Source of the DNA: Serratia sp. FDAARGOS_506
GTDB taxonomy: Bacteria > Pseudomonadota > Gammaproteobacteria > Enterobacterales > Enterobacteriaceae
DNA length: 64,000 bases
Direction of reading: 5' to 3'
NCBI RefSeq assembly: GCF_003812745.1
Contig: NZ_CP033831.1
Coordinates: forward strand, 3,782,001 to 3,846,000
In this document: piece after piece, positions 17,006-33,293 of the stretch
How the letters are laid out: each line of letters opens with the position of its first letter
Position numbering within the stretch: position 1 is the first letter of the stretch
Notes under the pieces: generated by a model
Told to the model about the DNA's origin: nothing
Seen by the model: the letters and a program-made list of their open reading frames with translations, nothing else
Databases searched by the model: none
Program-made: the position numbers and the translations under genes

Positions 17006-17774
17006 ATTCTCTCTCTATAGCAGAGCCTCGTTCAATATAGTCTTGCCAATGAAAATGGGAATAGCCAGCGGGCGCGGCTAAAAATCGGCCCGCTAGCATG
17101 GAATACATCCAGCGTGAACGCATTAGGAATATTCCTGTTATTTATAAGCTTCCCTTATATTGCGGAGAGAAATAAGTGATCCGACCACGAGGTTATACTG
17201 CCGCAAAAAGTAATCAATCTTGATGTTTCTATTTGGCGAAATGTTCAGTCGCCATGATGTTCTGCCGAACGGTATTCGGCCTGCTCTATGCGCTAACACT
17301 GACAAAAACCTCACTCATGACGGTGATAAACGCCATTTTATGCACTCTGAGGTGGTCGTCAGGTCGCTTTCTCCGGGGGCTCGCCTGAAAATACATGATG
17401 CAAATCAAGAAATGTTTTGTTTCATATGTTGACACTTTGCTTACGTATGAGATAGCCTCGCGAATGAAAATCATTAACAAAATTGGATGATTGAGCGAGA
17501 TGCACCCACTCTCTGATTCTTGTGCTCCGGCCGGATGGCCAAGCTGCCCCGGCGTAACGGCGCCGATAAGCGTACATTCGCCTCCTGTTTGCATCTCTGC
17601 ACCATAGGTGCCAAGCGCGGCGTCTGCTCGCACACATTTTCGTCACTCAGCATGTCTTCTCATGCGGCCCGCATCGGGTCTGCATGGGCTATCTGTCGTT
17701 TCAGGATCGAGGGAGGTCGCAGGGCGGTTAAAACGTAAGTTTTCTTCTGGGTATAAATAAACATGGAGCGTAAA
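17006..17774. other. Long intergenic region before the SSP gene
   Basis: About 770 bp with no convincing gene; the short reading frames lack both family resemblance and good start signals. It contains a 7-bp inverted repeat (AGCGGGC/GCCCGCT, 17067-17094), is moderately AT-rich, and shows a TTGACA at 17428 that could be a -35 box without a clear -10. The SSP promoter and any silencer or regulator sites should lie here. Confidence 0.5.
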
Positions 17775-20700
17775 ATGAAACTTAATAAGAAATTGAAGTT
17801 AGCGTATTGCGTTTTTCTGGGCTGTTATGGCCTATCCATTCATTCTTCTCTTGCCGCTTATCAGGATCCTGGTCAATTGGGTTCCCCCGGCAGTTGGAAA
17901 ACCGCAGAGTTTAACCGCCAATGGGGGCTTGAGGCTATTTCCGCAGAATTCGCTTATGCCAGAGGGTATACCGGAAAAGGTGTGACCATCGGCATTATCG
18001 ACAATGCCATTCTTTCCCATTCTGAATTCGCCGGGAAACTGACGCGACTGGATAACGGCAGTTATAATTTCTCATATGATAAACAGGACAATATGTCTTT
18101 CGGCGATCACGGCACGCACGTGGCCGGTATTGCCGCGGCTAAAAGAGATGGCACCGGTATGCACGGTGTGGCTTTTGACGCAGATATTATCGGCACGAAA
18201 TTGAATGACTACGGTAACAGCAATGGCCGCGAAGCGTTGATCCAGAGCGCGGCTCGCGTTATCAACAACAGTTGGGGGATTGCACCGGACATTCGGCGAG
18301 ACGCCAAAGGCGATATCATTTGGCTACCGAACGGCAGACCGGACTACGTGGCATTCGTTAAAGGCGACGTGATCGCTGAGATGATGCGCAGCAAGGCCAG
18401 CGTGGAATGGGGCAGTGAACAACCGGTGCCTACCGGCGCGCACAGCGCCATGTCGACGCTGCTGCGGGCGGCCCGGCACGGTAAGCTGATCGTCTTCTCG
18501 GCGGGCAATTACAACAACTACAATATTCCCGAAGCGCAAAAGTCGCTGCCTTACGCCTTCCCGGACGTATTGAATAATTACCTGATCGTGACCAACCTGA
18601 GTGACGAAAATCATTTAAGCGTCTCATCGACCAGCTGCGGACAGACGGCCAGCTACTGCGTATCTGCGCCGGGTTCCGATATTTACAGTACCGTCGGCCG
18701 GTTGGAGTCCAATACCGGCGGTGCCGTCAATCGCGAAGCCTATAATAAGGGCGAGTTGTCGCTCAATCCCGGCTACGGATATAAATCCGGCACCTCAATG
18801 GCGGCGCCGCATGTCACCGGTGTTGCCGCCGTATTGATGCAACGCTTCCCTTATATGAGCGCCGATCAAATATCCACGGTCATTAAAACTACCGCCACAG
18901 ATTTGGGCGTGGCCGGCATTGATAATTTATTCGGTTGGGGACGAGTCAATTTACGTGATGCGATCAACGGCCCGAAAATGTTTATTACCAAAGAGGATAT
19001 CCCGCAGGAATATTATGTGCCGGGCTCTTACAGTGAAAAACAGTTCGTGGCGAATATCCCCGGGCTGGGGAATATCGTTGAAGCGGGCACCTCGGTTGAG
19101 CGGCGTTGCACGTCGAGCGAATGCGACTACGATGCGTGGAGCAATGACATCGGTGGCCACGGCGGTTTGACCAAAACGGGCGCCGGCACACTGGCTCTGT
19201 TGGGCAACAATACCTACGGCGGCGATACCTGGGTGAAACAGGGCACGCTGGCAATCAATGGATCTGTGGCGTCCAACGTCTATATCGAAAATAGCGGCAC
19301 GTTGGCCGGTGACGGCACTGTGAGCGCTTTCCGGGCCGTTCGGGGCGGCAGCGTTGCGCCGGGTAACGGCATCGGCACGCTGCACGTGTTGCACGACGCC
19401 ATTTTTGATCGTGGATCGCAGTATAACGTTGAGATCGCGGATAATGGCCGCAGCGATAAAATCGAAGCGCGGCGAGCCTTCCTGAACGGTGGCAGCGTGA
19501 ACGTCAGCCTGGAGCACAGCAAGAACCTGCTGTCGCAGAATGAAGCGCAAAGTCTGTTGGGCAACAAATATATCATCCTGACGACGACAGACGGCGTCAA
19601 CGGCCGGTTTGAAAACGCGAATCCGGCATATCCGTTCGTGAACGTGGCGCTGGATTATCAGGGCAATGATGTCGGCCTGGGGATCACGCGTACCGCCGCG
19701 CGTTTTGACAGCCTGGCGAGTACCGAGAACGAGAAAGCGGTGGCCCGCGCGGTGGAAACGCTCAACGCGACGGAACCGGTCACGGAAACGGCCAAACGCA
19801 GCGTGGCGGCGCCTGCTGCTGAAGCGTTAAACGCACGGCAAAGTGATGAAGGCAATGCACAAGCCGTGACCGAAGAGGCGAGCTTCGTGGCCGGCCATCC
19901 GGTGTATGAAAGCTTCCTCGGGTTCACGTCGGCCGGAGAACTGCAACAGGCGACTCGTCAACTGTCTGGCCAGATCCACGCGGATATGGCTTCTGCTCAG
20001 ATCAACGAAAGTCGCCATCTGCGCGATACCGCCATCGAGCGCTTGCGCCAGGCGGAAGGCCGCCGCATCGCTTCCGATATCAAAGCGGATGACAACGGCA
20101 CCTGGGCGAAACTGCTGGGCACTTGGGGGCATGCTTCCGGCAACGACAACGCCGCCGGTTATCAGACATCCACCTACGGCGTTTTGTTAGGGCTCGACAG
20201 TGAACTGTTTAACGACGGCCGGCTTGGGGTGATGACCGGGTATACCCGCACCTCGCTGGATGGCGGTTATCAGTCAGACGCTCACAGCGACAACTACCAT
20301 CTGGGGCTGTACGGCAACAAACGCTTCGGCGCATTAGCGCTGCGGGCGGGGGGCACTTATACCTGGCATCGCATCGACACCTCGCGCTCGGTGAACTACG
20401 GCGCGCAGTCGGATCGCGAGAAGGCAGGTTATAACGCGCGCACCGGCCAGCTGTTTATCGAAAGCGGTTACGACTGGACGAACGACATGGTCAATCTTGA
20501 GCCATTCGCCAACCTGGCGTATACCCACTATCGTAACGAGGGGATCAATGAGGATGGTGGGGCGGCGGCGCTGCGTAGCGACAAACAAAGTCAATCCGCC
20601 ACCGCTTCGACGCTGGGGCTGCGCGCAGATACACAATGGCAGGCCGATAGCGTGGCGATCGCGCTGCGCGGCGAGCTGGGTTGGCAGCACCAGTACGGCA

Positions 20701-20912
20701 AGTTGGAGCGCAAAATGCAGCTGATGTTCAAACGCACCGATGCGGCGTTCGACGTGAACAGCGTGCCGGTTTCCCGCGATGGCGCGGTGCTGAAGGCGGG
20801 CGTCGACGTTTCGGTCAACAGAAACGCCGTCTTGTCCCTCGGTTACGGCGGGCAGCTGTCGTCCAACCATCAGGACAACAGCGTCAACGCCGGCCTGACC
20901 TGGCGCTTCTGA
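17775..20912 (+). CDS. Secreted subtilisin-like serine protease autotransporter SSP
   Basis: A 1045-residue autotransporter. A signal peptide of about 27 residues ends in SSLAA. The S8 subtilase domain has its triad at D76 (GIIDNAI), H112 (HGTHVAGIAA) and S341 (GTSMAAPHVTG). A passenger-associated repeat (GGLTKTGAGTLALLGNNTY) lies near residue 460. The C-terminal 270 residues form the beta-barrel and end in the aromatic WRF typical of outer-membrane proteins. Length and triad numbering match S. marcescens SSP as I recall it. The ATG at 17775 follows GGAGCG at six bases; an ATG at 17763 adds four residues. The enzyme is exported by Sec, translocates through its own barrel and is released. Confidence 0.95.
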   Translation: MKLNKKLKLAYCVFLGCYGLSIHSSLAAYQDPGQLGSPGSWKTAEFNRQWGLEAISAEFAYARGYTGKGVTIGIIDNAILSHSEFAGKLTRLDNGSYNFSYDKQDNMSFGDHGTHVAGIAAAKRDGTGMHGVAFDADIIGTKLNDYGNSNGREALIQSAARVINNSWGIAPDIRRDAKGDIIWLPNGRPDYVAFVKGDVIAEMMRSKASVEWGSEQPVPTGAHSAMSTLLRAARHGKLIVFSAGNYNNYNIPEAQKSLPYAFPDVLNNYLIVTNLSDENHLSVSSTSCGQTASYCVSAPGSDIYSTVGRLESNTGGAVNREAYNKGELSLNPGYGYKSGTSMAAPHVTGVAAVLMQRFPYMSADQISTVIKTTATDLGVAGIDNLFGWGRVNLRDAINGPKMFITKEDIPQEYYVPGSYSEKQFVANIPGLGNIVEAGTSVERRCTSSECDYDAWSNDIGGHGGLTKTGAGTLALLGNNTYGGDTWVKQGTLAINGSVASNVYIENSGTLAGDGTVSAFRAVRGGSVAPGNGIGTLHVLHDAIFDRGSQYNVEIADNGRSDKIEARRAFLNGGSVNVSLEHSKNLLSQNEAQSLLGNKYIILTTTDGVNGRFENANPAYPFVNVALDYQGNDVGLGITRTAARFDSLASTENEKAVARAVETLNATEPVTETAKRSVAAPAAEALNARQSDEGNAQAVTEEASFVAGHPVYESFLGFTSAGELQQATRQLSGQIHADMASAQINESRHLRDTAIERLRQAEGRRIASDIKADDNGTWAKLLGTWGHASGNDNAAGYQTSTYGVLLGLDSELFNDGRLGVMTGYTRTSLDGGYQSDAHSDNYHLGLYGNKRFGALALRAGGTYTWHRIDTSRSVNYGAQSDREKAGYNARTGQLFIESGYDWTNDMVNLEPFANLAYTHYRNEGINEDGGAAALRSDKQSQSATASTLGLRADTQWQADSVAIALRGELGWQHQYGKLERKMQLMFKRTDAAFDVNSVPVSRDGAVLKAGVDVSVNRNAVLSLGYGGQLSSNHQDNSVNAGLTWRF

Positions 20913-20940: not shown

Positions 20941-20968
20941 GCCTCCATCGTAACGATGGGGGCTTTTT
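20941..20968 (+). terminator. Terminator of the SSP gene
   Basis: A 10-bp stem (GCCTCCATCG with CGATGGGGGC, one G-T pair) and a 3-base loop, followed by five T residues, starting 28 bp after the stop. The T run overlaps the stop of the convergent DUF1330 gene. Confidence 0.88.
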
Positions 20969-21263
20969 ACTGGGTGAGCGGCAGGCCGTCGACGATCGTA
21001 ATCATGGCTTCCGCCACGTGGCGCCGCTGTTGTTTCGCCAACTGATAGGCCGGCGAATGATAGCAGGCTAACGCGGTGGCGTAGTCGTCGAATTCGATCA
21101 GCACATGCTTCACAAACGCCGGGCCTTCCAGCGTTTGTGCCTGTTCGCCGCGGGCGAGAAAACGGGCGTTGTACTGGCGAAACGCCTGGGGCGCCAAATC
21201 CATATAATGCTGATATTGCTTTGGATCTTTCACGGTGACATGGGCAATCCAGTAAGCGGGCAT
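20967..21263 (-). CDS. DUF1330 domain protein
   Basis: A 98-residue dimeric alpha-beta-barrel-type protein starting MPAYWIAHVTVKDPKQYQHY, with the FDDYATALACYHSPAYQ segment typical of DUF1330. No activity is established for the family. It begins one base after the stop of the GntR gene on the same strand, so the two form an operon. That places it with the regulator of the divergent catabolic operon, and a role in handling an intermediate of that pathway is possible but unproven. Confidence 0.85.
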   Translation of the reverse strand: MPAYWIAHVTVKDPKQYQHYMDLAPQAFRQYNARFLARGEQAQTLEGPAFVKHVLIEFDDYATALACYHSPAYQLAKQQRRHVAEAMITIVDGLPLTQ

Positions 21264-21264
21264 C

Positions 21265-21939
21265 TCAAGACTCCTGTTGCAGAATGCGTTTGGCCAGCGC
21301 GGCGGCCTCAGTCAGGTGAGCGATGACTTCTTGCCTGGCCTGCGTCGGATTGTTTCGTTCGATGGCGTGGTAGATCCGCGTCATGCGTTCGAAACCGGCC
21401 AGCTGACGCTCCGGGGTTTTCAGGGTCAGGGCGCGCAGGCGGCTGATGCGGCTGTTCAAACGCTGCACGATTTCCCAGGCGATGGCGTGATGGGCCACCT
21501 GGAAAATGGTTTCATAAAAGGCCTGCGACGCTTCAACACGCTGAATATCGTCCAGCCCGGCCGAAGCCTGATTAATCGCAATTAATTTTTCATGCAGTTT
21601 CTTTTTATCTTCCGGCCCGGCTTTTAAGGCGCAGTCGTGAGCGGCATCCTGTTCAAGCAGCAGGCGAATATTATAAACCTGCTCGGCAATTTCCCAGGTC
21701 AGAATAGCGACAATCGGTCCTTTCTTGCCGAGCGTTTCAATGAGCCCCTCCGCTTCGAGATAACGGATGACCTCGCGCACCACGCTGCGGCTGACGCCCA
21801 GCTCCTCGCACAGGCTGCGTTCCACCAAACGATCGCCGGCCTGAAAATACCCTGAGATAATCGCCTGCCTAATTTTCGCCAATGCCAATTCGCGCAAGGT
21901 GACCGGTGCATTCTCAATCTTCAATGACGCCTGAACCAT
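21265..21939 (-). CDS. GntR/FadR-type (FCD) transcriptional regulator
   Basis: A 224-residue regulator. The N-terminal winged helix (LRELALAKIRQAIISGYF..LVERSLCEELGVSRSVVREVIRYLEAEGLI) is classic GntR. The C-terminal 140 residues are an all-helical FCD ligand domain that includes a putative metal-ligand His/Asp set (DAAHDC, HHAIAWE, YHAIERN). I chose the ATG at 21939, preceded by AGAGA; the open frame extends further without similarity. It is divergent from the operon starting at 22398. The perfect dyad TGGTATACCA between them is the likely operator. It probably represses until a pathway substrate binds. Confidence 0.9.
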   Translation of the reverse strand: MVQASLKIENAPVTLRELALAKIRQAIISGYFQAGDRLVERSLCEELGVSRSVVREVIRYLEAEGLIETLGKKGPIVAILTWEIAEQVYNIRLLLEQDAAHDCALKAGPEDKKKLHEKLIAINQASAGLDDIQRVEASQAFYETIFQVAHHAIAWEIVQRLNSRISRLRALTLKTPERQLAGFERMTRIYHAIERNNPTQARQEVIAHLTEAAALAKRILQQES

Positions 21940-22397
21940 AATTGTCTCTATTTTTTGTGGATCATCATTAATCCGGATAACGACGCGTATTCCCGTTTGC
22001 CCGGTACTATTAACATCTTTCCAACCCGCAAAGCAACGGCGGCCGATTTTGCGCCGCATCGCCAAAACGGTGAATGTTGCAGCAGCTCACAAAATCGAAA
22101 GATAGCCTAAAAAAACCGCTTTTCGTTGCCGATACCCGCAGGCTCAACGGGTTCGACGTCAGCGCACGCCGCTGAACGGGAACCGTCGTGGCCGCCGTTT
22201 CTCGACCGAGTAGAGTACCCAGTTTTTTATTAATATATTGATTAATAATCATTATTTTTAATTTCTCTCTGTCGCCACACCTAAAATCAAGAATACCGTA
22301 TTATGGTATACCAAATTTTGACATGCCAATCTTCCCGATGTTATACCCTCGACTCGCGACATCTGATTAACATTTGATTTACTTTTCGAGGTCCCTT
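21940..22397. other. Divergent regulatory region, no gene
   Basis: A 458-bp gap between the GntR gene and the catabolic operon. I see no supportable gene. The right half, from about 22215, is AT-rich and holds the TGGTATACCA dyad; the left half is GC-rich and featureless to the eye. Promoters for both directions should lie here. Confidence 0.6.
22304..22313. promoter_or_regulatory. Candidate GntR operator TGGTATACCA
   Basis: A perfect 10-bp palindrome in an AT-rich context, 85 bp upstream of the first operon gene. It fits the TNGTNNNACNA pattern bound by many FCD-type GntR repressors, and the only nearby regulator is the divergent FCD GntR gene. Confidence 0.7.
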
Positions 22398-23000
22398 ATG
22401 CATCAAGACATTCGCAAGACCCTGGTTTCGACAGAAACCCTCTATGCCGACGGTGGCAAGTCGGCGGGCAAACCACTGGTGATGATCGCCGCGGCGGCGG
22501 TGATTAAAAATCCCTGGGCCGGGCAAGGCTTTGTTGAGGATCTGGCGCCCAAGATTCGAGAAATGGCGCCGGTGCTGGGTGAGCTGCTGACCGGTTTGAT
22601 CCTCAAGGAGGCCGGCTCCGGCGAGCGGGTGGAAGCCTTCGGCAAAAGTGCGGTGGTGGGGTTGGGCGGCGAGCTGGAACACGCCTCGGCGCTGATTCAC
22701 ACGCTGCATTTCGGCAACCACTATCGCTCGGCGGTCAACGGCAAAAGCTATCTGGCGTTCAACAATACCCGTGGGCCGGCCAACGCGCCGATCCTGATCC
22801 CGATGATGGGGAAAAACGATGAAGGCAGCCGCGAGCACTACCTGACATTCCAGTTCAACATCAACGACGCGCCCTTCGACGACGAGATCGTCATCGCACT
22901 GGGTGCGGCGCTGGGGGGGCGGCCGCATCATCGTATCGGCAACCGTTATTTGGATCTGAAAGAGCTGGGCCATGATCAGAACAATCCGGCAGCTGTCTGA
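22398..23000 (+). CDS. DUF1185 (amino acid synthesis family) protein
   Basis: A 200-residue protein of the DUF1185 or AA_synth family, recognised by KPLVMIAAAAVIKNPWAG near the N-terminus, GKSAVVGLGGELEHASALIHT in the middle and DDEIVIALGAALGGRPHHRIGNR at the end. The historical name does not establish an activity. The gene leads an operon that also encodes a hydrolase, a two-component flavin monooxygenase, an aldehyde dehydrogenase and an NCS1 permease, so a catabolic role (perhaps hydrolysis of a ring-opened amide or amine) is more likely than biosynthesis. The start follows CGAGG. It overlaps the next gene by 29 bp. Confidence 0.82.
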   Translation: MHQDIRKTLVSTETLYADGGKSAGKPLVMIAAAAVIKNPWAGQGFVEDLAPKIREMAPVLGELLTGLILKEAGSGERVEAFGKSAVVGLGGELEHASALIHTLHFGNHYRSAVNGKSYLAFNNTRGPANAPILIPMMGKNDEGSREHYLTFQFNINDAPFDDEIVIALGAALGGRPHHRIGNRYLDLKELGHDQNNPAAV

Positions 23001-23799
23001 GCCCGCTCTGCGGGTGGGGTATCTGGAGGCCGGGCGTGGCGAGCCGTTGGTGTTGATCCACGGCGTAGGCATGAATGCGGAGGCCTGGTATCCCCAGCTC
23101 GATGCGCTTAGCGCGCACTTTCGGGTCATCGCCGTCGATATGCCGGGCCACGGCAAAAGCGAAGGCTTCGCCCACGCCGCGACGCTGGAGGATTACGTGC
23201 GCTGGATGGCGGCCTTCTTAAACACCCTGGATGTGCCGAGCGTTGCGGTGGCTGGGCATTCGATGGGGGCGTTGATCACCGCCGGTTTGGCGATCGATTA
23301 TCCGGAGCGGGTCAATCGCGCTGTGGTGATGAGTGGCGTGTTTCAGCGTTCAGCGCAGGCCAGCGCCGCGGTCGCGCAACGCGCCAGCGCGTTGGCCTGC
23401 GGCCAGACGCAGCTTGACTCGCCGCTGAGCCGGTGGTTTGGCGCCGATCCCGCCGAACAGCGTCTGCGCCGGCAGGTGGGTGGCTGGTTGCAACAGGTGG
23501 ACATAGCGGGTTATGCCCGTGCTTATCAGGCGTTTGCCACCGGCGATCGGGTGTATGCCCAGCGTTGGCACCTTATCCGTTGCCCGGTGTTGGTGCTGAC
23601 CGGCGAGCACGACGCTAACTCCAGCCCGGAGATGGCGCGGCAAATGGCGCAGGCCGCACCGAACGGGCGCGCCGTGATCATTGAGAACGCCAAACACATG
23701 GTCAGTCTGACCGATGCGCAACGCGTCAACGCGCTGATGCTCGACTTTCTGACCGCAGAGCAACCTTTGACTTTAGGAGCGGCAAATGGACGCGGATAA
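22972..23799 (+). CDS. Alpha/beta hydrolase
   Basis: A 275-residue alpha/beta-fold hydrolase. The oxyanion region is LVLIHGVGMNAEAW, the nucleophile elbow is VAGHSMGAL (Ser near residue 97), a candidate Asp lies in LTGEHDANSSP and the His in ENAKHMVSL. This is the RutD/MhpC-like group of C-C, C-N or ester hydrolases. It overlaps both neighbours (29 bp and 14 bp), so translation is coupled within the operon. With the flavin monooxygenase downstream, it may cleave a ring-opened product. Confidence 0.87.
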   Translation: MIRTIRQLSEPALRVGYLEAGRGEPLVLIHGVGMNAEAWYPQLDALSAHFRVIAVDMPGHGKSEGFAHAATLEDYVRWMAAFLNTLDVPSVAVAGHSMGALITAGLAIDYPERVNRAVVMSGVFQRSAQASAAVAQRASALACGQTQLDSPLSRWFGADPAEQRLRRQVGGWLQQVDIAGYARAYQAFATGDRVYAQRWHLIRCPVLVLTGEHDANSSPEMARQMAQAAPNGRAVIIENAKHMVSLTDAQRVNALMLDFLTAEQPLTLGAANGRG

Positions 23800-24715
23800 A
23801 CGCAGGCAGTTGCGCGACGCTTTCGGCGCTTTTATGACCGGTGTCACCATTGTGACCTCGATAGACAAGCAAGGGCAGCCGATTGGCTTCACCGCCAATT
23901 CGTTTTCGTCGGTGTCCCTGGATCCGGCGCTGCTGTTGGTGAGCATCGATAAACGTTCGGCGAACCTGGAGAATTTTACCCAGTGCAGCCACTTCGCCAT
24001 CAATATTCTGGCGGAACAGCAAAAAGAGGCTTCAACCATTTTTGCGCAAAAGAACGAAGACCGCTTTGCGCTGATCGATTGGCGCTGGAGCGCGTCACGG
24101 GTGCCGCTGATCGATAACAGTTCGGCGTGGTTCGACTGCTCGCTGCATCAGGTGGTGGACGCCGGTGACCATGCCATTCTGATCGGCAAGGTCGAAGGGT
24201 TCGAGTCCAATGCTACCGCCGGTTTGGGATATTACCGCGGCGCTTATTTCACGCCTTATCAAAACGCCCAGTCGCTGATTGGCGGGCCACAGGTGGTGGT
24301 GAGCGCGCTGATCGAATTTGAAGGGCATGCCGTGATGGTACGGCAAAACGACGGCGGCTATCAGCTGCCGTCCAGCACGGTGGAAAAACGCAGCGTCAGC
24401 GAAACGTTGGGGGATTTGCTGCAGCAGTTGGGCATCAACGCCCATCCGGGCTTCGTCTATTCCGTCTATGACGATCGGCAGAAACACCAGCAACACATCG
24501 TTTTTCTGTGTGCGCTGCCGACCGACGCCGGTAGCCTGACGCCGCAGCTGAGTGCGGCGGAATGGTTCGACATGCCGACGCTGGCGCGGCTGCCGATCAA
24601 GGATCCGGCGCTGCAGTCGATGCTGGGCCGATTCGTCAAAGAAAACGCCGTGGGCAATTACGGTATCTATTATGGCGATGAGCACAGCGGTGCCATCAAG
24701 CAATTCGCCGGTTGA
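23786..24715 (+). CDS. Flavin reductase fused to a degenerate Nudix-like domain
   Basis: A 309-residue two-domain protein. Residues about 1-160 are an HpaC/NTAB-type flavin reductase: FGAFMTGVTIVTS, the flavin-binding GFTANSFSSVSLDPALLLVSID, and HFAINILAEQQ. Residues about 170-305 resemble a Nudix fold, but the Nudix box is not intact: the segment near LPSSTVEKRSVSETLGDLLQ lacks the REXXEE core, so hydrolase activity is doubtful and a binding or regulatory role is likelier. It would supply reduced FMN to the luciferase-like monooxygenase 19 bp downstream. The start follows TAGGAG. Confidence 0.88.
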   Translation: MDADKRRQLRDAFGAFMTGVTIVTSIDKQGQPIGFTANSFSSVSLDPALLLVSIDKRSANLENFTQCSHFAINILAEQQKEASTIFAQKNEDRFALIDWRWSASRVPLIDNSSAWFDCSLHQVVDAGDHAILIGKVEGFESNATAGLGYYRGAYFTPYQNAQSLIGGPQVVVSALIEFEGHAVMVRQNDGGYQLPSSTVEKRSVSETLGDLLQQLGINAHPGFVYSVYDDRQKHQQHIVFLCALPTDAGSLTPQLSAAEWFDMPTLARLPIKDPALQSMLGRFVKENAVGNYGIYYGDEHSGAIKQFAG

Positions 24716-24734
24716 GGCTGAACGGGAGAGTGTG

Positions 24735-25772
24735 ATGAAACTGTCTTTATTCGTGCATATGGAACGAACGTTACCCGAAGAGTCGCAGGAAAAGCTCTAC
24801 CAGGAGATGATCGAACTCTGCGAAATCGCCGATCGCGGCGGCATGCACGCCATCTGGACCGGTGAGCACCACGGCATGAATTTTACCATCGCGCCGAATC
24901 CGTTCATCAATCTGGCGGATATTGCCCGGCGCACCTCTCGGGTGCGGCTCGGCACCGGCACCATCATTGCGCCGTTCAATCACCCGATCCGTCTGGCGGG
25001 TGAGGCGGCGATGACCGACATCATCACCGGCGGCAGGCTGGAGCTGGGCATCGCGCGCGGCGCTTATTCCTATGAATACGAACGGCTGATGCCCGGTTTG
25101 ACCGCCTGGGATGCCGGGCAGCGCATGCGTGAGCTGATCCCGGCGGTGAAAAAACTCTGGCAGGGCGACTATGCCCATCAGGGGGAGTACTGGTCATTCC
25201 CGGCGACCACCTCCTCACCGCTGCCGAAACAGCAGCCGCATCCGCCGATTTGGGTGGCAGCGCGCGATCCCAACAGCCACGAATTTGCGGTGCAAAACGG
25301 CTGCAACGTTCAGGTTACGCCGTTGCATCAGGGTGAAGAGGAGATCGTGCGGCTGGTGACCTGTTTCAACGAGGCGCGCGCCCGCTTCGCCGCCGATCAG
25401 CCGCTGAAGATCATGCTGTTGCAGCATGGCTACGTGGCGGAGGACGAGGCGGACGCTCGCCAGGCGGCGGAAGAGCTCAACCGTTTCTACCACTACTTCG
25501 GCGCCTGGTTCAAGAACCAGCGGCCGGTGCGGCAAGGGCTGATTCAGCCGCTGAGCGATGAAGAGATCGCAGCCAATACCTATTACTCCGCCGACATGAT
25601 GCGCGCCAACCTGGCTATCGGCACCGCCAATGAGGTCATTACGCGGCTGAAAAAATATGAGGCGCTGGGTTATGACGAATTTGCGTTGTGGATCGACAGC
25701 GGCATGAGCTTTGCGCGTAAAAAGGCCTCTCTGGAGCGGTTCATTCGCTGCGTGATGCCGGAATTTCACTAA
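24735..25772 (+). CDS. LLM-class (luciferase-like) flavin-dependent monooxygenase
   Basis: A 345-residue bacterial-luciferase-fold protein. N-terminal MKLSLFVHMERT leads to GEHHGMNFTIAPNPF, then RVRLGTGTIIAPFNHPIRLAGEAAMTD, GGRLELGIARGAY and IWVAARDPNS, the phosphate- and flavin-binding elements of the family. These enzymes use FMNH2 from a partner reductase for oxygenation or ring opening, and the partner is encoded just upstream. GGGAG precedes the ATG. Pyridine and other heterocycle monooxygenases belong to this class, which with the NCS1 permease points to a nitrogen heterocycle; the substrate itself is not visible. Confidence 0.9.
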   Translation: MKLSLFVHMERTLPEESQEKLYQEMIELCEIADRGGMHAIWTGEHHGMNFTIAPNPFINLADIARRTSRVRLGTGTIIAPFNHPIRLAGEAAMTDIITGGRLELGIARGAYSYEYERLMPGLTAWDAGQRMRELIPAVKKLWQGDYAHQGEYWSFPATTSSPLPKQQPHPPIWVAARDPNSHEFAVQNGCNVQVTPLHQGEEEIVRLVTCFNEARARFAADQPLKIMLLQHGYVAEDEADARQAAEELNRFYHYFGAWFKNQRPVRQGLIQPLSDEEIAANTYYSADMMRANLAIGTANEVITRLKKYEALGYDEFALWIDSGMSFARKKASLERFIRCVMPEFH

Positions 25773-25783
25773 CGGAGGCGCTG

Positions 25784-27250
25784 ATGGAATCGTTCAAACT
25801 CTACATCGACGGCCGATTTGACGCCGGTTCGGCGACCTTCGCCTCGCTCAACCCGGCGACCGGTGAACCCTGGGCGCAGATAGCGGAAGCCCGCGCTCAG
25901 GATGTGGATCGCGCCGTTGCGGCGGCGCACCGGGCGTTCCAGGGGGCCGAGTGGCGCGACATGACCGCCGGCGCGCGCGGCAAGCTGTTGTTGCGGCTGG
26001 CCGACTTGCTGGAACAGCACGCTCCCGAGCTGGCGCGGCTGGAGACGCTGGATACCGGCAAGATCATCCGGGAAACCCAAGCGCAGATCGCTTACGTGGC
26101 GGAGTACTACCGGTACTACGCCGGCTTGGCCGACAAGATGGAAGGCAGCGTGCTCGCGATCGACAAACCCGACATGGAAACCTGGGTACGACGCGAACCG
26201 ATCGGGGTAGTGGCGGCGATCGTTCCCTGGAACAGCCAGCTGTTTCTCGCGGCGGTGAAAATCGGCCCGGCGATCGCCGCCGGCTGCACGCTGGTGGTCA
26301 AGGCGGCAGAAACCGCGCCGGCGCCGCTGCTGGCGTTCGCCAAACTGATAGACGAGGCCGGTTTTCCGCGTGGCGTGTGCAATGTGATCACCGGCTTTGC
26401 CGCCGAATGCGGCGCGGTGCTGACGGCGCATCCGCAGGTAGACCATATCGCCTTTACCGGCGGCGCGGAAACCGCGAAGCACATCGTCCGCGGCAGTGCG
26501 GAAAATCTCGCCAGCACCTCGCTGGAGCTGGGGGGGAAATCGCCGTTTATCGTCTTCGACGACGCGGATCTGACCAGCGCGGCGAATGCGCAGGTGGCGG
26601 CCATTTTCGCCGCGTCGGGCCAGAGCTGCGTAGCCGGCTCGCGCCTGCTGGTGGCGGAAAGCATCAAAGACGCGTTCCTGGCCCGGCTGACGGAGAAGGT
26701 GCGCAACATCCGCATCGGGCCGCCGGATCGTCCGGATACCCAGTTCGGGCCGCTGTGCACCAGGCAGCAGCAAGAACGAATCGCCGCCATCGTCAGCCGT
26801 TCGCTGGAGCAGGGGGCGAAACTGGTGATTGGGCATACGACGATCGATTCACCGGGCTTTTACTACCCGCCGACGATCGTCGATTGCAGCGGACACCCCG
26901 ATGCCGAGTGCGTTAAGCAAGAGCTGTTCGGCCCGGTGCTGTCGGTGTTGACCTTCAGGAACGAAGCGGAGGCGATTCAGCTTGCCAATGACTCAGCCTA
27001 TGGCCTGGCGGCCGGCATTTTCACGCAGAACCTGACGCGCGCGCATCGGGTAACGCGTCGTCTGAGGGTGGGCGTGGTGTGGCTCAACACCTATCGGGCG
27101 GTATCGCCGCTGGCGCCGTTTGGCGGCTACGGCAAGTCGGGGTTTGGTCGCGAAGGCGGGATGGACGCTGCGCTGGAATACACCACCAGCAAGACGGTAT
27201 GGCTGCGCACCAGTGACGATCCGATAGACGATCCCTTCGTCATGCGCTGA
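25784..27250 (+). CDS. NAD(P)-dependent aldehyde dehydrogenase
   Basis: A 488-residue aldehyde dehydrogenase with VVAAIVPWNSQLFLA, the general-base region SLELGGKSPFIVFD and the catalytic Cys in FAASGQSCVAGSR. The C-terminus is GGYGKSGFGREGG. A 2-hydroxymuconic-, betaine- or succinate-semialdehyde-type substrate would fit, but the specificity is not readable. It lies 11 bp after the monooxygenase stop with AACGGAGG ahead of the ATG, so it is in the same operon and likely oxidises the aldehyde from ring opening. Confidence 0.9.
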   Translation: MESFKLYIDGRFDAGSATFASLNPATGEPWAQIAEARAQDVDRAVAAAHRAFQGAEWRDMTAGARGKLLLRLADLLEQHAPELARLETLDTGKIIRETQAQIAYVAEYYRYYAGLADKMEGSVLAIDKPDMETWVRREPIGVVAAIVPWNSQLFLAAVKIGPAIAAGCTLVVKAAETAPAPLLAFAKLIDEAGFPRGVCNVITGFAAECGAVLTAHPQVDHIAFTGGAETAKHIVRGSAENLASTSLELGGKSPFIVFDDADLTSAANAQVAAIFAASGQSCVAGSRLLVAESIKDAFLARLTEKVRNIRIGPPDRPDTQFGPLCTRQQQERIAAIVSRSLEQGAKLVIGHTTIDSPGFYYPPTIVDCSGHPDAECVKQELFGPVLSVLTFRNEAEAIQLANDSAYGLAAGIFTQNLTRAHRVTRRLRVGVVWLNTYRAVSPLAPFGGYGKSGFGREGGMDAALEYTTSKTVWLRTSDDPIDDPFVMR

Positions 27251-27263
27251 GTCAGCGCAAACA

Positions 27264-27284
27264 GGCGCGATCCCAGATCGCGCC
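27264..27284. other. Hairpin between aldehyde dehydrogenase and permease genes
   Basis: A perfect 9-bp inverted repeat, GGCGCGATC and GATCGCGCC with loop CCA, 13 bp after the aldehyde dehydrogenase stop. No U tract follows, so it may be a processing or stability element lowering permease expression, or a factor-assisted terminator. The permease gene begins 128 bp later. Confidence 0.55.
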
Positions 27285-27412
27285 GGCAACCCTGTATTCA
27301 TCGCGTTGATACCGGCGACGGCAATGTCGCCGGGGCAAGCGCACGCTTTTTTCGACGTATTCGCACCCTACACGCTGTAAAAAAATAATAATCCACGTTA
27401 ACCGGGGGATAT

Positions 27413-28798
27413 ATGAATTCTCAGCCAGAGCAGACCGCGTTTATTGAAGACAAGTCGATCGATTTTGTTCCCGCCGGGGAGCGTCATGGCCACGCCCGCA
27501 GCCTGTTCACCCTGTGGTTTTGCACCAACATTGCGCCGCTGGCGGTAGTGACCGGGGCCATCTCCACGCAGACGTTTCATCTCGATATTCTCTCGGCGCT
27601 GAGCGCGATTATCGCCGGCCATCTGTTCGGCGGTATTTTTCTGGCGCTGACCTCGGCTCAGGGGCCGCAGGTCGGGATACCGCAAATGGTGCAGAGCCGG
27701 GCGCAGTTCGGCCGTTACGGTTCGCTATTGGTGATCGTATTTGCCACGGTGATCTATCTGGGGTTCTTTATTTCTAACATCACGCTTTCGGGCAAGGTCA
27801 TCCATAACGTCATTCCGTCGTTGAACATAGGTGTGGCCACGGTGATTGGCGCAGTGCTGGCGACGCTGATCGGGGTGGTGGGCTACCGTTTCATCCACAA
27901 GATCAACAAAGTTGGCGCCTGGGTGATGGGCAGCGCGCTGATTCTCGGATTGATATTGATGTTTTCTCAACCGATGCCGGCGGATTTTTGGCAACGTGGG
28001 TCGTTCAGCATTGCCGGTTGGTTCGCCACGTTCTGCATCGGCGCCGTCTGGCAAATCAGCTTCTCGCCCTACACGTCAGACTATTCGCGCTACCTGCCAG
28101 CGGAAGTCGGCATTGCCAAACCCTTCCTGTATACCTACTTCGGTGCCTGCAGCGGCACCATTTTAGCCTTCGTGTTCGGCATGGTGGCGGTCAATCTGGT
28201 CGCCGGCAGCGACGATGCCATGGAGGCGGTGCGCCAGGCGACGGGAGGGTTGGGGCCGGTACTGATGGTGCTGTTTCTGATCAACATCATCTGCCATAAC
28301 TCAATGAATCTGTACGGTGCGGTGCTGTCGCTGATTACCGCTGTACAAACCTTCTTACCGCAGTGGATGCCGAATGCGCGTATACGTACGCTGTTCTCGG
28401 CAATGATTTTGCTGGGAACGGTATGGGTGGCGCTGGTTGCCTCGGCCAACTTCGTTCATCTGTTCCTGAATCTGATCTTTGCTCTGATCTCGGTGCTGAT
28501 CCCGTGGTGCATGATCAACCTGATCGATTTTTACCTGCTTAACCGTCAGCGCTATGACATCTCGGCTATTTTCAGCGCCGACGGTGGGCGCTATGGCCTG
28601 CTCAACACCCGCGCGCTCGGCGTTTATTTCGGCGGTATTGCGGTGCAGGTGCCTTTCGTTGAGAACGCGTTTTTCTCCGGCCCTTACGCCAATCTGATCC
28701 CGGGCGCAGACATTTCCTGGGTGATCAGCATGGTGCTGACCGGCATCGCCTACCCATTGTGCTGTACACGGCGGGCTAACTGGGCGGTACAGGTTTAA
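27413..28798 (+). CDS. NCS1-family permease (cytosine/purine/hydantoin type)
   Basis: A 461-residue polytopic membrane protein with about 12 hydrophobic helices and an acidic hydrophilic N-terminus. The LFTLWFCTNIAPLAVVTGA segment and the GPQVGIPQMVQSRAQFGRYG loop are NCS1 hallmarks; the family imports nucleobases, hydantoins, allantoin, thiamin or related heterocycles with Na+ or H+. The start follows CCGGGGG. It closes the catabolic operon after a 162-bp gap with a hairpin. Its stop TAA interlocks with that of pqqF on the other strand. Confidence 0.9.
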   Translation: MNSQPEQTAFIEDKSIDFVPAGERHGHARSLFTLWFCTNIAPLAVVTGAISTQTFHLDILSALSAIIAGHLFGGIFLALTSAQGPQVGIPQMVQSRAQFGRYGSLLVIVFATVIYLGFFISNITLSGKVIHNVIPSLNIGVATVIGAVLATLIGVVGYRFIHKINKVGAWVMGSALILGLILMFSQPMPADFWQRGSFSIAGWFATFCIGAVWQISFSPYTSDYSRYLPAEVGIAKPFLYTYFGACSGTILAFVFGMVAVNLVAGSDDAMEAVRQATGGLGPVLMVLFLINIICHNSMNLYGAVLSLITAVQTFLPQWMPNARIRTLFSAMILLGTVWVALVASANFVHLFLNLIFALISVLIPWCMINLIDFYLLNRQRYDISAIFSADGGRYGLLNTRALGVYFGGIAVQVPFVENAFFSGPYANLIPGADISWVISMVLTGIAYPLCCTRRANWAVQV

Positions 28799-31119
28799 GC
28801 GCCCTCGATCCGGAAGATCCGTTGCTGCCAGCTTCGCAGCTGCACCGCCGGCATGGTAGCCACCCGCGCCACTGCGGGGCGATTCTCCAACGCGATTTCC
28901 CGCGCGCGCTGCAGCGGCGCGGCGCTGAGGCGCTGCAAGTTTTGCCGCAACGCTTGTTGCGTTTGCTCCAGCTCGCCAGCGCCCACATGCGCCAGTACAT
29001 GGCGCATCTGCAATAAGAATTCGGCAGTTAACTGTTGCAGCTGTTCAACGGCGAACGTGGGGGATTGTAGCGCGAACATCAGGCCTTCGGCATCGGCGCA
29101 GCGGTGCAAGGCGCATTGCACCACGTAGCCAACGTTGCGTTCCACGCGCAGCCGCTGGAAGTAACGCGGTGCGTAAAGCTGGGCCAGCACGCGCAGCGCC
29201 CAACGTCCTTCGGCTTCCTCGCTTGGCAGCGGATAAAACTGCAGCAGGGCGTGCTCGGCACCGCTTTCCGTCAGCGTGAAGGGACGATGGAGCTGATGTG
29301 TCGGCATCTGGGGCTCTGCGGCCACGGAATAGGGGAAGTCGCACAGCAGGTGCGACAGCTGCTGTTTTAATTCGCTATCGCCGCCGATTAAGGTGGCGTG
29401 CCACCGAGTCGCCGTGGCTATCGGTGCGCTGAGCGCCGTCGGCAATTGGGCTAGCAGGCGGCGAATGGCGATATCGTTTTGCTCTTTCAGCTGCGTATGG
29501 CGCAGATTTCTCGCCGCCTCGTTGAGGATGGCCGGCGTGAGTGCCGCCAGCGCCCGGTTCACTACGCTCAGTCCGTGACAGATCATCGCGTTGCTGCCCG
29601 CCAGCTGCAGCAGCCACACGCCCTGATGGCGTTCGAAGCTTAAATGCCCCTCCCGATGCGCCAGCTCTGCCGCCCCGGTGCGCAGCGCCGCCTGCCAGCC
29701 GTAGGCTTGTTCGTCGCTGAAGGCGCTGGACGGCGCCGGCCGCAGCAGCAGCACCGGCTGCGGCTCTCCGGGTAGCAGGTGCCGCAGCGGCGCCTGGCCG
29801 GAAGACAATGACGGGATCGGCAGCGCCGCCGAGGAGGAGAAAAAGCGGAAAGGTTCCGCTGTAGAATTCAGCTCGGCGCCGGCGAAGGCGCCAAGCGCCA
29901 GCGGCAGCCCCTGAATTTCACGGGTTTCACTGTCGCCTTCGGGCCGCACGGCCAGGCGACGACGCGGCGCGTTAATCAGCGCCGCAATATGCCGTGACCA
30001 ATCGTCGTCTTCCTCCGCCGGTGGCAGCCCAAGCGCTCTGGCACGCAGCTGATCGAGCGGCGCCAAACGGTGGAAATCGCGATTTGCCAGCTGCCCATAA
30101 TGCGCAAGCTGAGCCGGCGCCAGCGCCTGCAGCGCTCGCAGCCACGCCAGCAGCGCGCTTTCGATCTGGGCGGCTTCAGCGGCTGAACCGTGATTGAGGG
30201 TAAAGATAAAACTCAGCAGTGCGCTGTTCTCGCTGCAGCGTGAATAATCCAGCCGAACGGCGTCGCACCACGCCTGAGCGCGCAGGCGGGCCAGCAGCCC
30301 GCCGGAGGCTTCGTCCAGCAGCAGGCGCTCCAGCCGCCGCAGCCAACCGCGGGAATGGGAACGCGGTAGGGCAAATACCAGTCTCAGCTGCGGTGTGCCG
30401 GGAAGAGACAGGGTGTGATCTTCCGCCGCGGTCAGCGACGGTGAAGCTTCATGCTGTGTGGCGCTGCCCGGAGGCAAACTGCTGCCGTAGCGCTGCGCCA
30501 GCGCATGCAGCTGCGCCAGCGACTGCGGGCCTTGCAGCCACAGCGTCATGTTGGGCGCGCGAAAATAGCGCTGGTGAAACTGCCGCAGCGCTTGCTGCAA
30601 GGCGGAAATGTCGTTGCCGAAGGCGGCGCGGCTGCCGATATGAAAACGGTGCAATGCTTCCAGGCCGCCGAACATCTGCCGCTGCGCGGCATCGCAGCAG
30701 GTTTCACCATCGGCGCGCAGCAGGCGGTATTCGGCATCGATGACCTCGATTTCTTGCACGATCGCCTCAGTTGCCAGCAGAGGCGCGGCGAGCATATCGC
30801 TCAGACGCGCCAGCCCCGGTGCCAAATGCTCGGCGCCCACCTCGAAGAAAAATGCGGTTTGCGTGGCCTGGGTGGTGGCATTCAGCCGGCCACCGGCCGA
30901 TGGAACCCAGCCCATCAGGCCATCTTGTGCGCTGAAATTCGCGCTGCCGCGAAACAGCATATGCTCCAGCAGATGCGCCAGACCAGGCCAGGCGACGGGC
31001 GCTTGAAAGCTGCCGGCTTCTATGCGCACCAGCGCGGCGGCGCCGGTAGCGGTAGGGTCGCTTATCGCCTTGACGCCCAAACCGTTGTCGAATTGCCACG
31101 AGGCAGCGGTGAGCGTCAT
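28795..31119 (-). CDS. pqqF: PqqF, M16-family peptidase of PQQ biosynthesis
   Basis: A 774-residue insulinase-like zinc protease. The inverted zinc motif HLLEH lies in LAHLLEHMLFRG near residue 50, and the downstream metal Glu is in the E-rich helix around EIEVIDAEYR. It is thought to help trim the modified PqqA peptide. I took the ATG at 31119, which lies two bases after the pqqE stop and gives the expected MTLTAASWQFDNGLGV start; the longer frame runs into pqqE. It is the last gene of the pqq operon and overlaps the convergent permease by 4 bp. Confidence 0.92.
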   Translation of the reverse strand: MTLTAASWQFDNGLGVKAISDPTATGAAALVRIEAGSFQAPVAWPGLAHLLEHMLFRGSANFSAQDGLMGWVPSAGGRLNATTQATQTAFFFEVGAEHLAPGLARLSDMLAAPLLATEAIVQEIEVIDAEYRLLRADGETCCDAAQRQMFGGLEALHRFHIGSRAAFGNDISALQQALRQFHQRYFRAPNMTLWLQGPQSLAQLHALAQRYGSSLPPGSATQHEASPSLTAAEDHTLSLPGTPQLRLVFALPRSHSRGWLRRLERLLLDEASGGLLARLRAQAWCDAVRLDYSRCSENSALLSFIFTLNHGSAAEAAQIESALLAWLRALQALAPAQLAHYGQLANRDFHRLAPLDQLRARALGLPPAEEDDDWSRHIAALINAPRRRLAVRPEGDSETREIQGLPLALGAFAGAELNSTAEPFRFFSSSAALPIPSLSSGQAPLRHLLPGEPQPVLLLRPAPSSAFSDEQAYGWQAALRTGAAELAHREGHLSFERHQGVWLLQLAGSNAMICHGLSVVNRALAALTPAILNEAARNLRHTQLKEQNDIAIRRLLAQLPTALSAPIATATRWHATLIGGDSELKQQLSHLLCDFPYSVAAEPQMPTHQLHRPFTLTESGAEHALLQFYPLPSEEAEGRWALRVLAQLYAPRYFQRLRVERNVGYVVQCALHRCADAEGLMFALQSPTFAVEQLQQLTAEFLLQMRHVLAHVGAGELEQTQQALRQNLQRLSAAPLQRAREIALENRPAVARVATMPAVQLRSWQQRIFRIEGA

Positions 31120-31121
31120 CG

Positions 31122-32258
31122 TCAGCCCTTGAAGATCAAACGGGAGTTGGTCTGATTGCGAAAACGCAGCTGATCGATACCGACCTGCGAGCGATTCGCC
31201 GTTTCCCGCGCCGCCAGAATGGTGCCGTGGTGCGGTGATTTGCCACACACCGGGTCGGCGTTGTCCGCGTTGCCGGTCAGCATGAAGGCCTGGCAACGGC
31301 AGCCGCCGTAGTCTTGCTCTTTTTCCGAACAGGAACGGCAGGGCTCCGGCATCCAGTCGTAGCCGCGATAGCGGTTAAAGCCGAACGAGTGGTACCAGAT
31401 ATGCTGCAGATCGTGCTCCAGCACCGACGGGAAAGCGATCGGCAACTGGCGAGCGCTGTGACAGGGTAACGCCATGCCTTCCGGCGTCACGCTCATGAAG
31501 ATCGCCCCCCAGCCGCCCATGCAGCCTTTGGGCCGTTCCTCATAGTAGTCCGGCGTGACGAACAGCAGGTTGGCCAGCTTGCCGTCGGCGGCCATGCGTT
31601 CGCGATAGCGTTTCACCACCGCCTCCGCTTCGGCGATCTGCTCGCGAGTCGGCAACAGGCCTTCTCGGTTCAGGTGCGCCCAGCCGTAGAACTGGCAGGT
31701 CGCCAGCTCGACGTCGTCGGCATCCAGCTGGATCGCCAGTTCGATAATGCGGTCGATCTGGCCGATGTTATGACGATGCAGCACGAAGTTGAGCACCATC
31801 GGATAGCCGAGCGCCTTGACCGCCTTGGCCATGGCCAGCTTCTGCTGAAACGCCTTGGCGGAGCCCGCCAGCGCGGCGTTCAGCGTTTCGTCGCTGGCCT
31901 GAAAACTGATCTGGATATGGTCCAGCCCGGCGTCGGCGAAGGTCTGCAGCTTCTTCTCGGTCAGGCCGATGCCGGAGGTGATCAGGTTGGTGTAAAAGCC
32001 GAGATCGCGTGCGGCGGCGATCAGCTCGGGCAGGTCTTTACGCACCAGCGGCTCGCCGCCGGAAAAACCGAGCTGTACGCTGCCCATCGCCCGCGCCTGG
32101 CGAAACACCTCGATCCACTGCGCGGTGGTCAACTCTTTTTCCTGCGCGGCAAAATCGAGCGGATTAGAGCAATAGGGGCACTGCAGCGGGCAGCGGTAGG
32201 TCAGCTCCGCCAGCAGCCAGAGTGGCGGGTTCACCGCCGGCGCGCGTGCTTCAGTCAC
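31122..32258 (-). CDS. pqqE: PqqE, radical SAM enzyme of PQQ biosynthesis
   Basis: A 378-residue radical SAM/SPASM protein. The [4Fe-4S] cluster motif is CPLQCPYC near residue 24, and C-terminal SPASM cysteines appear in [18 protein letters not shown]. The enzyme cross-links the conserved Glu and Tyr of PqqA while it is held by PqqD. The start is GTG, overlapping the pqqD end by 8 bp. PQQ is absent from E. coli, so this cluster is informative about the host's ability to form holo-glucose dehydrogenase. Confidence 0.96.
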
Positions 32259-32529
32259 GGAAGGTCACCCATTTTTGTTCGTAGGCGCGCTGGAAAAATT
32301 CCAGCACGTCATCCGCCAACCCGTCGGCGCCGGGGAAACGGGCGTTCAGCTGGGCGATGATGCCGTTCAGCGTGGTGTGGCCGTCGACCAACTGCAAGAT
32401 GGCGGCGGCGCTGTCGTTCAGCTTGGCCATGCCTTCCGGGTAGAGGATCACGTGGCTGTTCTGCACTTGTTCCCATTGCAGGCGGTAGCCGCGGCGGAAG
32501 ACGGGGGTGTGTTCAGGGTTCAGCGTCAT
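32251..32529 (-). CDS. pqqD: PqqD, PqqA peptide chaperone
   Basis: A 92-residue RiPP-recognition-element protein beginning [20 protein letters not shown], with the [24 protein letters not shown] core where PqqA docks. Its ATG shares one base with the pqqC stop (TAATG) and its end overlaps the pqqE start by 8 bp, giving tight coupling. The length is usual for the family. The longer upstream frame runs inside pqqC and is not real. Confidence 0.95.
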
Positions 32530-33284
32530 TACACCAGCCTCTGGTTGTGCCATACCCGCGCGGCGGTCACGCTGTGATAAGGCGGGCGGTTCAGGGTATA
32601 GGCCATGCTCATGGCGTCCAGCATGCTCCACAGAATATCCAGTTTGAACTGCAGGATCTCCAGCATGCGCTGCTGCTTTTCAACGGTGTCGCAATAGTCC
32701 AGCGCCAGCGCCAGACCGTGTTCCACGTCGCGGTTGGCCTGGCCGAGGCGGCTGCGGAAATAGTCGTAGCCGGCGGCGTCGATCCACGGATAGTGCTGCG
32801 GCCAGCTGTCGAGGCGCGATTGGTGGATTTGCGGCGCGAACAGTTCGGTCAGCGAGCTGCAGGCCGCTTCCTGCCAGCAGGCACGGCGCGCGAAATTGAC
32901 GTAGGCGTCCACCGCGAAGCGCACGCCCGGCAGCACCAATTCTTCAGAGAGCAGAGCGTCGCGCTGTAGCCCAACGGCTTCTCCCAGGCGCAGCCAGGCT
33001 TCGATGCCGCCTTCACTGCCGCCGTAGCCATCGTGATCCAGGATGCGTTGCACCCATTTACGGCGGGTTTCCGATTGCGGGCAGTTGGCCATGATCGCCG
33101 CGTCTTTGATAGGAATGCTGGTCTGGTAATAGAACCGGTTGGCCACCCAGCCCTGGATCTGCTCCCGGGTCGCTTCGCCATTGTGCATCGCGATGTGGTA
33201 CGGGTGGTGGATATGGTAATAAGCGCCTTTGGCGCGCAGCGCCGCTTCAAATGCCGGCGGAGTCAGGGGCAGTGGTTGCGTCAT
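32529..33284 (-). CDS. pqqC: PqqC, pyrroloquinoline-quinone synthase
   Basis: A 251-residue all-helical oxidase that performs the final cofactorless ring closure and oxidation to PQQ. Recognisable stretches are [32 protein letters not shown], shortened here to its key HxxHP and [11 protein letters not shown] parts, and [20 protein letters not shown]. It begins 10 bases after pqqB. Length and motifs match the Klebsiella enzyme. Confidence 0.96.
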
Positions 33285-33293
33285 GGCGATTCC

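Follow-up and report, generated by a model that had tools for sequence, protein, structure and literature searches.

The window, a 64,000-nucleotide stretch of Serratia sp. FDAARGOS_506 (contig NZ_CP033831.1, positions 3,782,001 to 3,846,000), contains an operon in which a DUF1330–GntR gene pair is divergent from six genes. These encode a DUF1185 protein, an alpha/beta hydrolase, a flavin reductase, a luciferase-like monooxygenase (LLM), an aldehyde dehydrogenase (ALDH) and an NCS1 permease (Table 1). The coordinates and the Pfam scores, which for all eight proteins are well over the family cut-offs, bear out the genes, strands and families given in the preliminary description; no NCBIfam cut-off is reached by any of the eight among the matches listed. 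The starts of the GntR gene (ATG at 21939) and the LLM gene (24735) were refined from the sequence. The DUF1185 and hydrolase genes overlap by 29 nt and the hydrolase and reductase genes by 14 nt, while 19 nt separate the reductase from the LLM, 11 nt the LLM from the ALDH and 162 nt the ALDH from the permease. Promoter-like sites (5 vs 3.2 expected) and terminator-like sites (9 vs 9.9 expected) were not used as evidence. Solved structural relatives were recognized by sequence for the DUF1185 protein, the reductase, the DUF1330 protein and, distantly, the LLM; a sequence search of the PDB gave none for the NCS1 permease.

Table 1. Features of the operon, with positions in the window and percent identity to the Acinetobacter baylyi counterpart.
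Feature	Position	Strand	Support
DUF1330 protein, 98 aa, beside the regulator gene	20967-21263	-	Pfam PF07045 111 bits; PDB relative 2fiu; 55% to A. baylyi
GntR/FCD-family regulator, 224 aa	21265-21939	-	Pfam FCD 68 bits, GntR 58 bits; 53% to A. baylyi gene
Palindrome TGGTATACCA	22304-22313		Conserved between GntR and DUF1185
DUF1185/PF06684 (AA_synth) protein, TgnF orthologue, 200 aa	22398-23000	+	Pfam 213 bits; 73% to A. baylyi
Alpha/beta hydrolase, presumed TgnD orthologue	22972-23799	+	Pfam Abhydrolase_1 110 bits; 49% to A. baylyi
Flavin reductase, TgnA orthologue	23786-24715	+	Pfam Flavin_Reduct 137 bits, residues 14-155; 52% to A. baylyi
Luciferase-like monooxygenase, TgnB orthologue (ring-opening oxygenase)	24735-25772	+	Pfam Bac_luciferase 187 bits; 69% to A. 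baylyi
Aldehyde dehydrogenase, presumed TgnC orthologue	25784-27250	+	Pfam Aldedh 553 bits; 71% to A. baylyi gene after LLM
NCS1-family permease	27413-28798	+	Pfam Transp_cyt_pur 139 bits; 60% to A. baylyi

In the type strain of A. baylyi (L083) all eight genes recur with order and orientation unchanged, at 49–73% identity, followed by genes for an OprD-like porin and a succinate-semialdehyde dehydrogenase (SSADH), both of which are absent from the window operon. The window operon is very probably a trigonelline (tgn)-type operon for the catabolism of trigonelline (N-methylnicotinate), a nitrogen-ring compound made by plants. The tgn cluster of A. baylyi was the subject of a 2018 paper cited in PMC7913881, PMC8269262 and others. 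In A. baylyi ADP1, TgnF is homologous to HcdD, a DUF1185 protein, and stimulates TgnE-dependent oxidation of succinate semialdehyde (PMC7913881). TgnA and TgnB open the trigonelline ring (PMC8269262), and TgnB, a flavin-dependent trigonelline monooxygenase, is grouped with luciferase-like enzymes (PMC11354265, figure legend). Since the A. baylyi genome has a single PF06684 (DUF1185) gene and TgnF is a DUF1185 homologue, the A. baylyi locus has to be the tgn cluster if ADP1 equals the type strain there; the sharing of all eight genes then identifies the window operon, in all likelihood, as a tgn cluster. The genome of the window likewise has one PF06684 match, and the two DUF1185 proteins are 73% identical. 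The two components of the oxygenase, TgnA and TgnB, are encoded together in the window and match adjacent A. baylyi genes (52% and 69%); the next A. baylyi LLM is 32% identical to that of the window. The ALDH beside the oxygenase (71%) and the hydrolase (49%) occupy the same places as in A. baylyi. We take the former to be TgnC and the latter, presumably acting on the ring-opened acid, to be TgnD, and the roles of TgnC, TgnD and TgnE in the A. baylyi pathway are assumed here as well. The window ALDH is 36% identical to the SSADH of A. baumannii. The proposal of an N-heterocycle operon beside a GntR gene, with ring opening by reductase and LLM, import, oxidation and hydrolysis, thus stands, but the operon is not "undescribed": the cluster is an intact copy of a kind already described in A. 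baylyi.

Conservation of the gene order elsewhere, on which the preliminary description had made its reading depend, was found well beyond A. baylyi. Among 149 genomes drawn from the family, seven (the own genome included) carry the LLM at 83–100% identity, and the next full-length matches reach at most 29%. The six besides the own genome come from six other genera; fetched with flanks, each has all eight genes in the window order (6/6). Within the genus, 8 of 30 genomes carry the operon LLM: the own genome, six at 98–99% and one at 84%. This last copy clusters with one from a different genus (support 100/100, in a tree with only four enterobacterial rows), and the copies of Klebsiella aerogenes, Pantoea and Chimaeribacter lie on records filed as plasmids; together these observations suggest that the operon has moved between genomes. 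At E <= 1e-35, LLM matches occur in 10 of 369 genomes of the class and 24 of 398 of the phylum, own included. Flanks were not fetched for matches of 30–32% (L040, L041, L063–L065) or for one match at a contig end (L039).

An unbroken DUF1185–hydrolase–reductase–LLM–ALDH row is present in 81 of 88 further loci, a set composed of eight hand-picked plasmid loci and the 80 best similarity matches and therefore biased to close kin; the reductase is missing from the row in five, two of which also lack the hydrolase. The row is unbroken in 18 of 35 other loci, seven of them from the own genus. All five genes stand in a row in only 11 of the 28 class and phylum matches with flanks, the others being cut at a contig end, lacking the reductase or having a rearranged, diverged set. 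The LLM has at least 58% identity in 110 of these 123 (88 plus 35) loci. The hydrolase and the ALDH are each found in 109 of the 110, DUF1185 in 107, the reductase in 104, GntR in 98, DUF1330 in 85, NCS1 in 53, SSADH in 46 and NIPSNAP in six; loci truncated at a contig end (e.g. L149, L151 and L184) were kept, which costs some genes. Whole-locus counts also include the genes of a second cluster in one locus (L100, L102 and L104). These three Caballeronia loci have two head-to-head clusters, one tgn-like with an LLM of 72–73% identity and the other an ALDH–LLM(57%)–reductase–hydrolase–DUF1185 set, which perhaps serves a second pyridinium substrate. On pAt of Agrobacterium fabrum (L073), a reductase–ALDH–LLM(40%)–hydrolase–carboxymuconolactone decarboxylase–NIPSNAP–DUF1185 set lies near betaine/proline ABC genes and is a candidate for action on another betaine-like pyridinium compound. 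A tree of 43 rows places the window LLM in a 19-row clade (support 100/99) together with the A. baylyi, Sinorhizobium meliloti pSymA, Leisingera and Burkholderia copies. Outside it fall the Caballeronia paralogue of 57%, the copies L201 and L202 (both 60%) and groups of 36–53%. Because some distant rows have long branches, only the 19-row clade was used.

The pSymA replicon of S. meliloti carries the same core after nodL-noeA-noeB. GntR, DUF1185, hydrolase, reductase, LLM and ALDH follow in order, the LLM is 68% identical to that of the window, and the palindrome has one mismatch. The cluster differs in that GntR is on the same strand, NIPSNAP replaces DUF1330, an ABC transporter replaces NCS1 and an SSADH gene is included. 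Wild-type S. meliloti grows on trigonelline and the pSymA-less strain does not (PMC4207669), and a cited work of 1990 has S. meliloti trigonelline catabolism genes in its title, so the pSymA cluster presumably serves trigonelline use. Trigonelline supported better growth of Ruegeria pomeroyi DSS-3 than homarine did (PMC8269262); the operon was found in another Ruegeria and in Leisingera.

A conserved element lies between the GntR and DUF1185 genes. Of 88 such regions, that of the window among them, 78 have the exact 10-mer TGGTATACCA and the other 10 have it with one mismatch; in 200 mononucleotide shuffles, which do not weight kinship, the mean was 0.015 regions and the maximum 1. Within 300 nt 5´ of DUF1185, the palindrome is present with at most one mismatch in 25 of 34 further loci. 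The nine loci without it comprise five diverged sets (LLM 36–43%) and four with LLMs of 62–65%, and a GntR match was found in none of the nine. The element is common to alpha-, beta- and gammaproteobacterial copies. With at most one mismatch, it also lies 5´ of the SSADH gene in all 16 Acinetobacter loci (exact in 5) and 5´ of 1 of 30 other SSADH genes (Ruegeria); in A. baylyi it has one mismatch before DUF1185 and is exact before SSADH. Genome-wide, the exact 10-mer is not enriched over its backward control in the own genome (2 vs 4), A. baylyi (4 vs 4), A. baumannii (2 vs 9) or pSymA (0 vs 2), so the evidence is its place and not its number. One of the four exact A. baylyi sites is the SSADH site. 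The own genome's second exact site falls within a porin-like open reading frame (ORF), at its 3´ end, and was taken as chance. The palindrome is a probable operator of the GntR protein, which in turn is a probable repressor of the operon. No prior description of the element was found in a small check of the trigonelline and GntR literature, and its absence from print is not claimed firmly.

Other substrates have to be weighed against trigonelline. Nucleobases and hydantoins are the usual cargo of NCS1 carriers, and the RutF and RutD models score partially on the window proteins, which could indicate a pyrimidine, purine or hydantoin route. The scores, however, are 84.8 bits against a cut-off of 254.75 for RutF and 81.4 against 238.5 for RutD, and the orthology is to the A. 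baylyi cluster, which makes such a route highly improbable. An LLM with a partner reductase would also suit a sulfonate or sulfone monooxygenase operon of the SsuD, SfnG or DmoA type. That assignment is hardly credible, with 31.8 bits against a cut-off of 518.2 for the alkanesulfonate model (SsuD, TIGR03565), 43 against 382.95 for SfnG, 33.1 against 279.7 for NtaA/DmoA, and no sulfonate transporter among the eight genes. The closest alternative retains the tgn family and its chemistry and shifts the substrate to another pyridine, plain or N-alkylated (homarine, N-methylnicotinamide, pyridine or nicotinate). Diverged sister LLM sets such as those of A. fabrum pAt (40%) and the second Caballeronia cluster (57%) are in its favor, but the window LLM lies inside the 100/99 clade, at 69% identity to A. 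baylyi and outside the diverged groups, and shares the palindrome with the tgn copies. For homarine, action by TgnA/TgnB has been argued unlikely on steric grounds (PMC8269262). A shifted substrate is accordingly regarded as improbable.

Several observations weigh against assigning the window operon to trigonelline. The A. baylyi sequence compared is that of the type strain and not of ADP1, and the link to the ADP1 tgn locus tags is assumed. The S. meliloti phenotype belongs to a whole replicon of > 1 Mb, and diverged LLM groups of 36–57% identity with similar gene sets exist, which may act on other compounds. The type of transporter differs between clades, so that transport is something we only infer. 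Finally, the window operon has no SSADH gene (TgnE). This absence was not taken as defining because 28 of 68 fully flanked related loci also have no SSADH nearby; DUF1185 is present in all 68 and SSADH in 40. The SSADH of those 28 loci could be encoded elsewhere, as in the genome of the window, where three SSADH-like genes of 56–58% identity lie outside the operon.

On the tgn assignment, a pathway can be proposed for Serratia sp. FDAARGOS_506, whose use of trigonelline is predicted from sequence comparison. The NCS1 permease, a probable importer of the substrate, would take up trigonelline. The reductase (TgnA) would supply reduced flavin to the LLM (TgnB), which would open the pyridinium ring. 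The ALDH (TgnC) would then convert the aldehyde or hydroxylactone product to N-methylformamido-methylene succinate, which the hydrolase (TgnD) would split into formate, methylamine, CO2 and succinate semialdehyde; these intermediates are those that we take the trigonelline route to have. An SSADH encoded elsewhere in the genome would yield succinate, the DUF1185 protein (TgnF) would assist the pathway, and the GntR protein would repress at the palindrome until the substrate or a derivative appears. Both hydrolysis and oxidation of the fragment, as first proposed, are retained in this scheme, but their order is reversed, since in A. baylyi the ALDH oxidation reportedly precedes the hydrolase. 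The second half of the reductase, after the flavin-reductase domain, has no Pfam match, and PDB entry 3rh7 covers residues 7–307 (E 3e-75). In the HPA hydroxylase reductase an extra domain senses the substrate; by analogy, the C-terminal half of the window reductase may be a substrate sensor.

Two parts of the tgn-type clusters vary. DUF1330 is found in 88 and NIPSNAP in eight of the 123 loci and never both (Fisher p 2e-5, kinship not corrected), as if the two replaced each other; NIPSNAP stands in place of DUF1330 in some clusters, e.g. the rhizobial ones. In 19 of the 82 loci in which GntR, DUF1185 and DUF1330 were all found, DUF1330 separates the other two. The transporter is exchangeable: NCS1 is found in Acinetobacter, Burkholderia kin and enterobacteria, and an ABC transporter in S. 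meliloti, after the ALDH and NIPSNAP genes. The preliminary description had stated that neither DUF1330 nor DUF1185 has an assigned chemistry. This remains correct for DUF1330, the one operon gene without any assigned part, and has to be qualified for DUF1185, which has at least a role as TgnF.

In 125 copies of DUF1185, nearly all from tgn-like loci, K83, E92, E94, H95, H101, R110, R145, H147, D157 and E163 are 100% conserved and R175, H177 and R179 are 98–99% conserved. Residues E92, E94, H95, H101, H147, R175, H177 and R179 align with Glu90, Glu92, His93, His98, His144, Arg172, His174 and Arg176 of BB2672, which are located in or near a large dimer-interface cavity and have been read as a pH switch for assembly (PMC2954203). 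The neighbors of DUF1185 outside tgn clusters were searched by tblastn within 6 kb at 20 loci, hand-picked and not random, from 59 genomes with PF06684, tgn clusters being left out; the neighbor queries came from L263, L273, L274 and L266, each of which counts as its own match. Genes for a 6-hydroxynicotinate-reductase-like protein (annotated as 6-hydroxynicotinate reductase in named records) and UPF0280 were found at 11 loci, an FAA hydrolase gene at seven and an alcohol dehydrogenase gene at six, mostly weak at 26–29% identity. An ALDH gene was found at none of the 20, and the idea that DUF1185 always serves an ALDH was rejected on this count. Tandem DUF1185 pairs occur at seven of the loci (L262 and L264–L269), mostly by the 6-hydroxynicotinate-reductase-like and UPF0280 genes, and perhaps form a hetero-oligomer. 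These clusters resemble the tgn operon in that a DUF1185 gene lies by an enzyme annotated for a pyridine-type ring; they differ in that no LLM or ALDH was found within 6 kb and the DUF1185 proteins are about 28–38% identical.

Such neighbors, among them 6-hydroxynicotinate reductase and FAA hydrolase but never an ALDH, suggest a ring-opening role for DUF1185 rather than that of a dehydrogenase helper; the common theme would be conversion of a ring to a cyclic amide or ester, which is opened next. It is tentatively proposed, as a possibility still rated unlikely, that TgnF/DUF1185 is an enzyme that opens a small ring (lactone, hydroxylactone or lactam) from N- or O-heterocycle degradation, with the conserved His/Glu/Arg cluster at the dimer-interface cavity as its active site. 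The candidate substrates would be the hydroxybutyrolactone through which the trigonelline route presumably passes and the lactam that we expect from 6-hydroxynicotinate reductase. Opening of cyclic succinate semialdehyde by DUF1185 would account for the stimulated oxidation of succinate semialdehyde that has been reported. In the 7-hydroxycoumarin hcd operon of Pseudomonas mandelii, the protein would act on the dihydrocoumarin lactone. This operon resembles the tgn operon in that the DUF1185 protein HcdD is encoded in a ring-degrading operon, and differs in that an O-heterocycle is reduced by an alcohol-dehydrogenase-type enzyme, with no luciferase mentioned in the text (PMC7913881). Only the ring-opened product was obtained from cells containing HcdD, E, F and G, the HcdE lactone opens slowly by itself, and the hydrolase is unassigned (PMC7913881). 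Against a ring-opening HcdD, the authors propose that it aids lactone formation, saw no effect of HcdD and favor the cupin HcdF as a possible hydrolase (PMC7913881).

The operon is flanked by genes of other kinds. Its permease gene overlaps at the 3´ end, by 4 nt, the stop of a convergent pqqF gene on the minus strand (28795 to about 31125; TIGR02110, 540.7 bits vs a cut-off of 320). Upstream of pqqF on the same strand, ORFs that by eye resemble PqqE (31122-32258), PqqC (32529-33284) and PqqB (33294-34205) follow, and the region 28795-34205 looks like a pyrroloquinoline quinone biosynthesis cluster. An autotransporter serine protease gene (17763-20912, plus strand) lies just upstream of the operon; it scores 641 bits with the EprS model, under the cut-off of 1700. 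Taken with a GC content of about 60%, this gene would point to Serratia or a relative.

Scattered enterobacteria now join Acinetobacter and, by phenotype, the rhizobia as carriers of a trigonelline-type operon. The useful additions of the comparison are the conserved palindrome and the gene context of DUF1185. Being nearly invariant, the palindrome makes the regulon easy to approach, and a trigonelline sensor could be developed from it should it prove to be the operator. For DUF1185, the neighboring genes supply a specific hypothesis that can be tested quickly.

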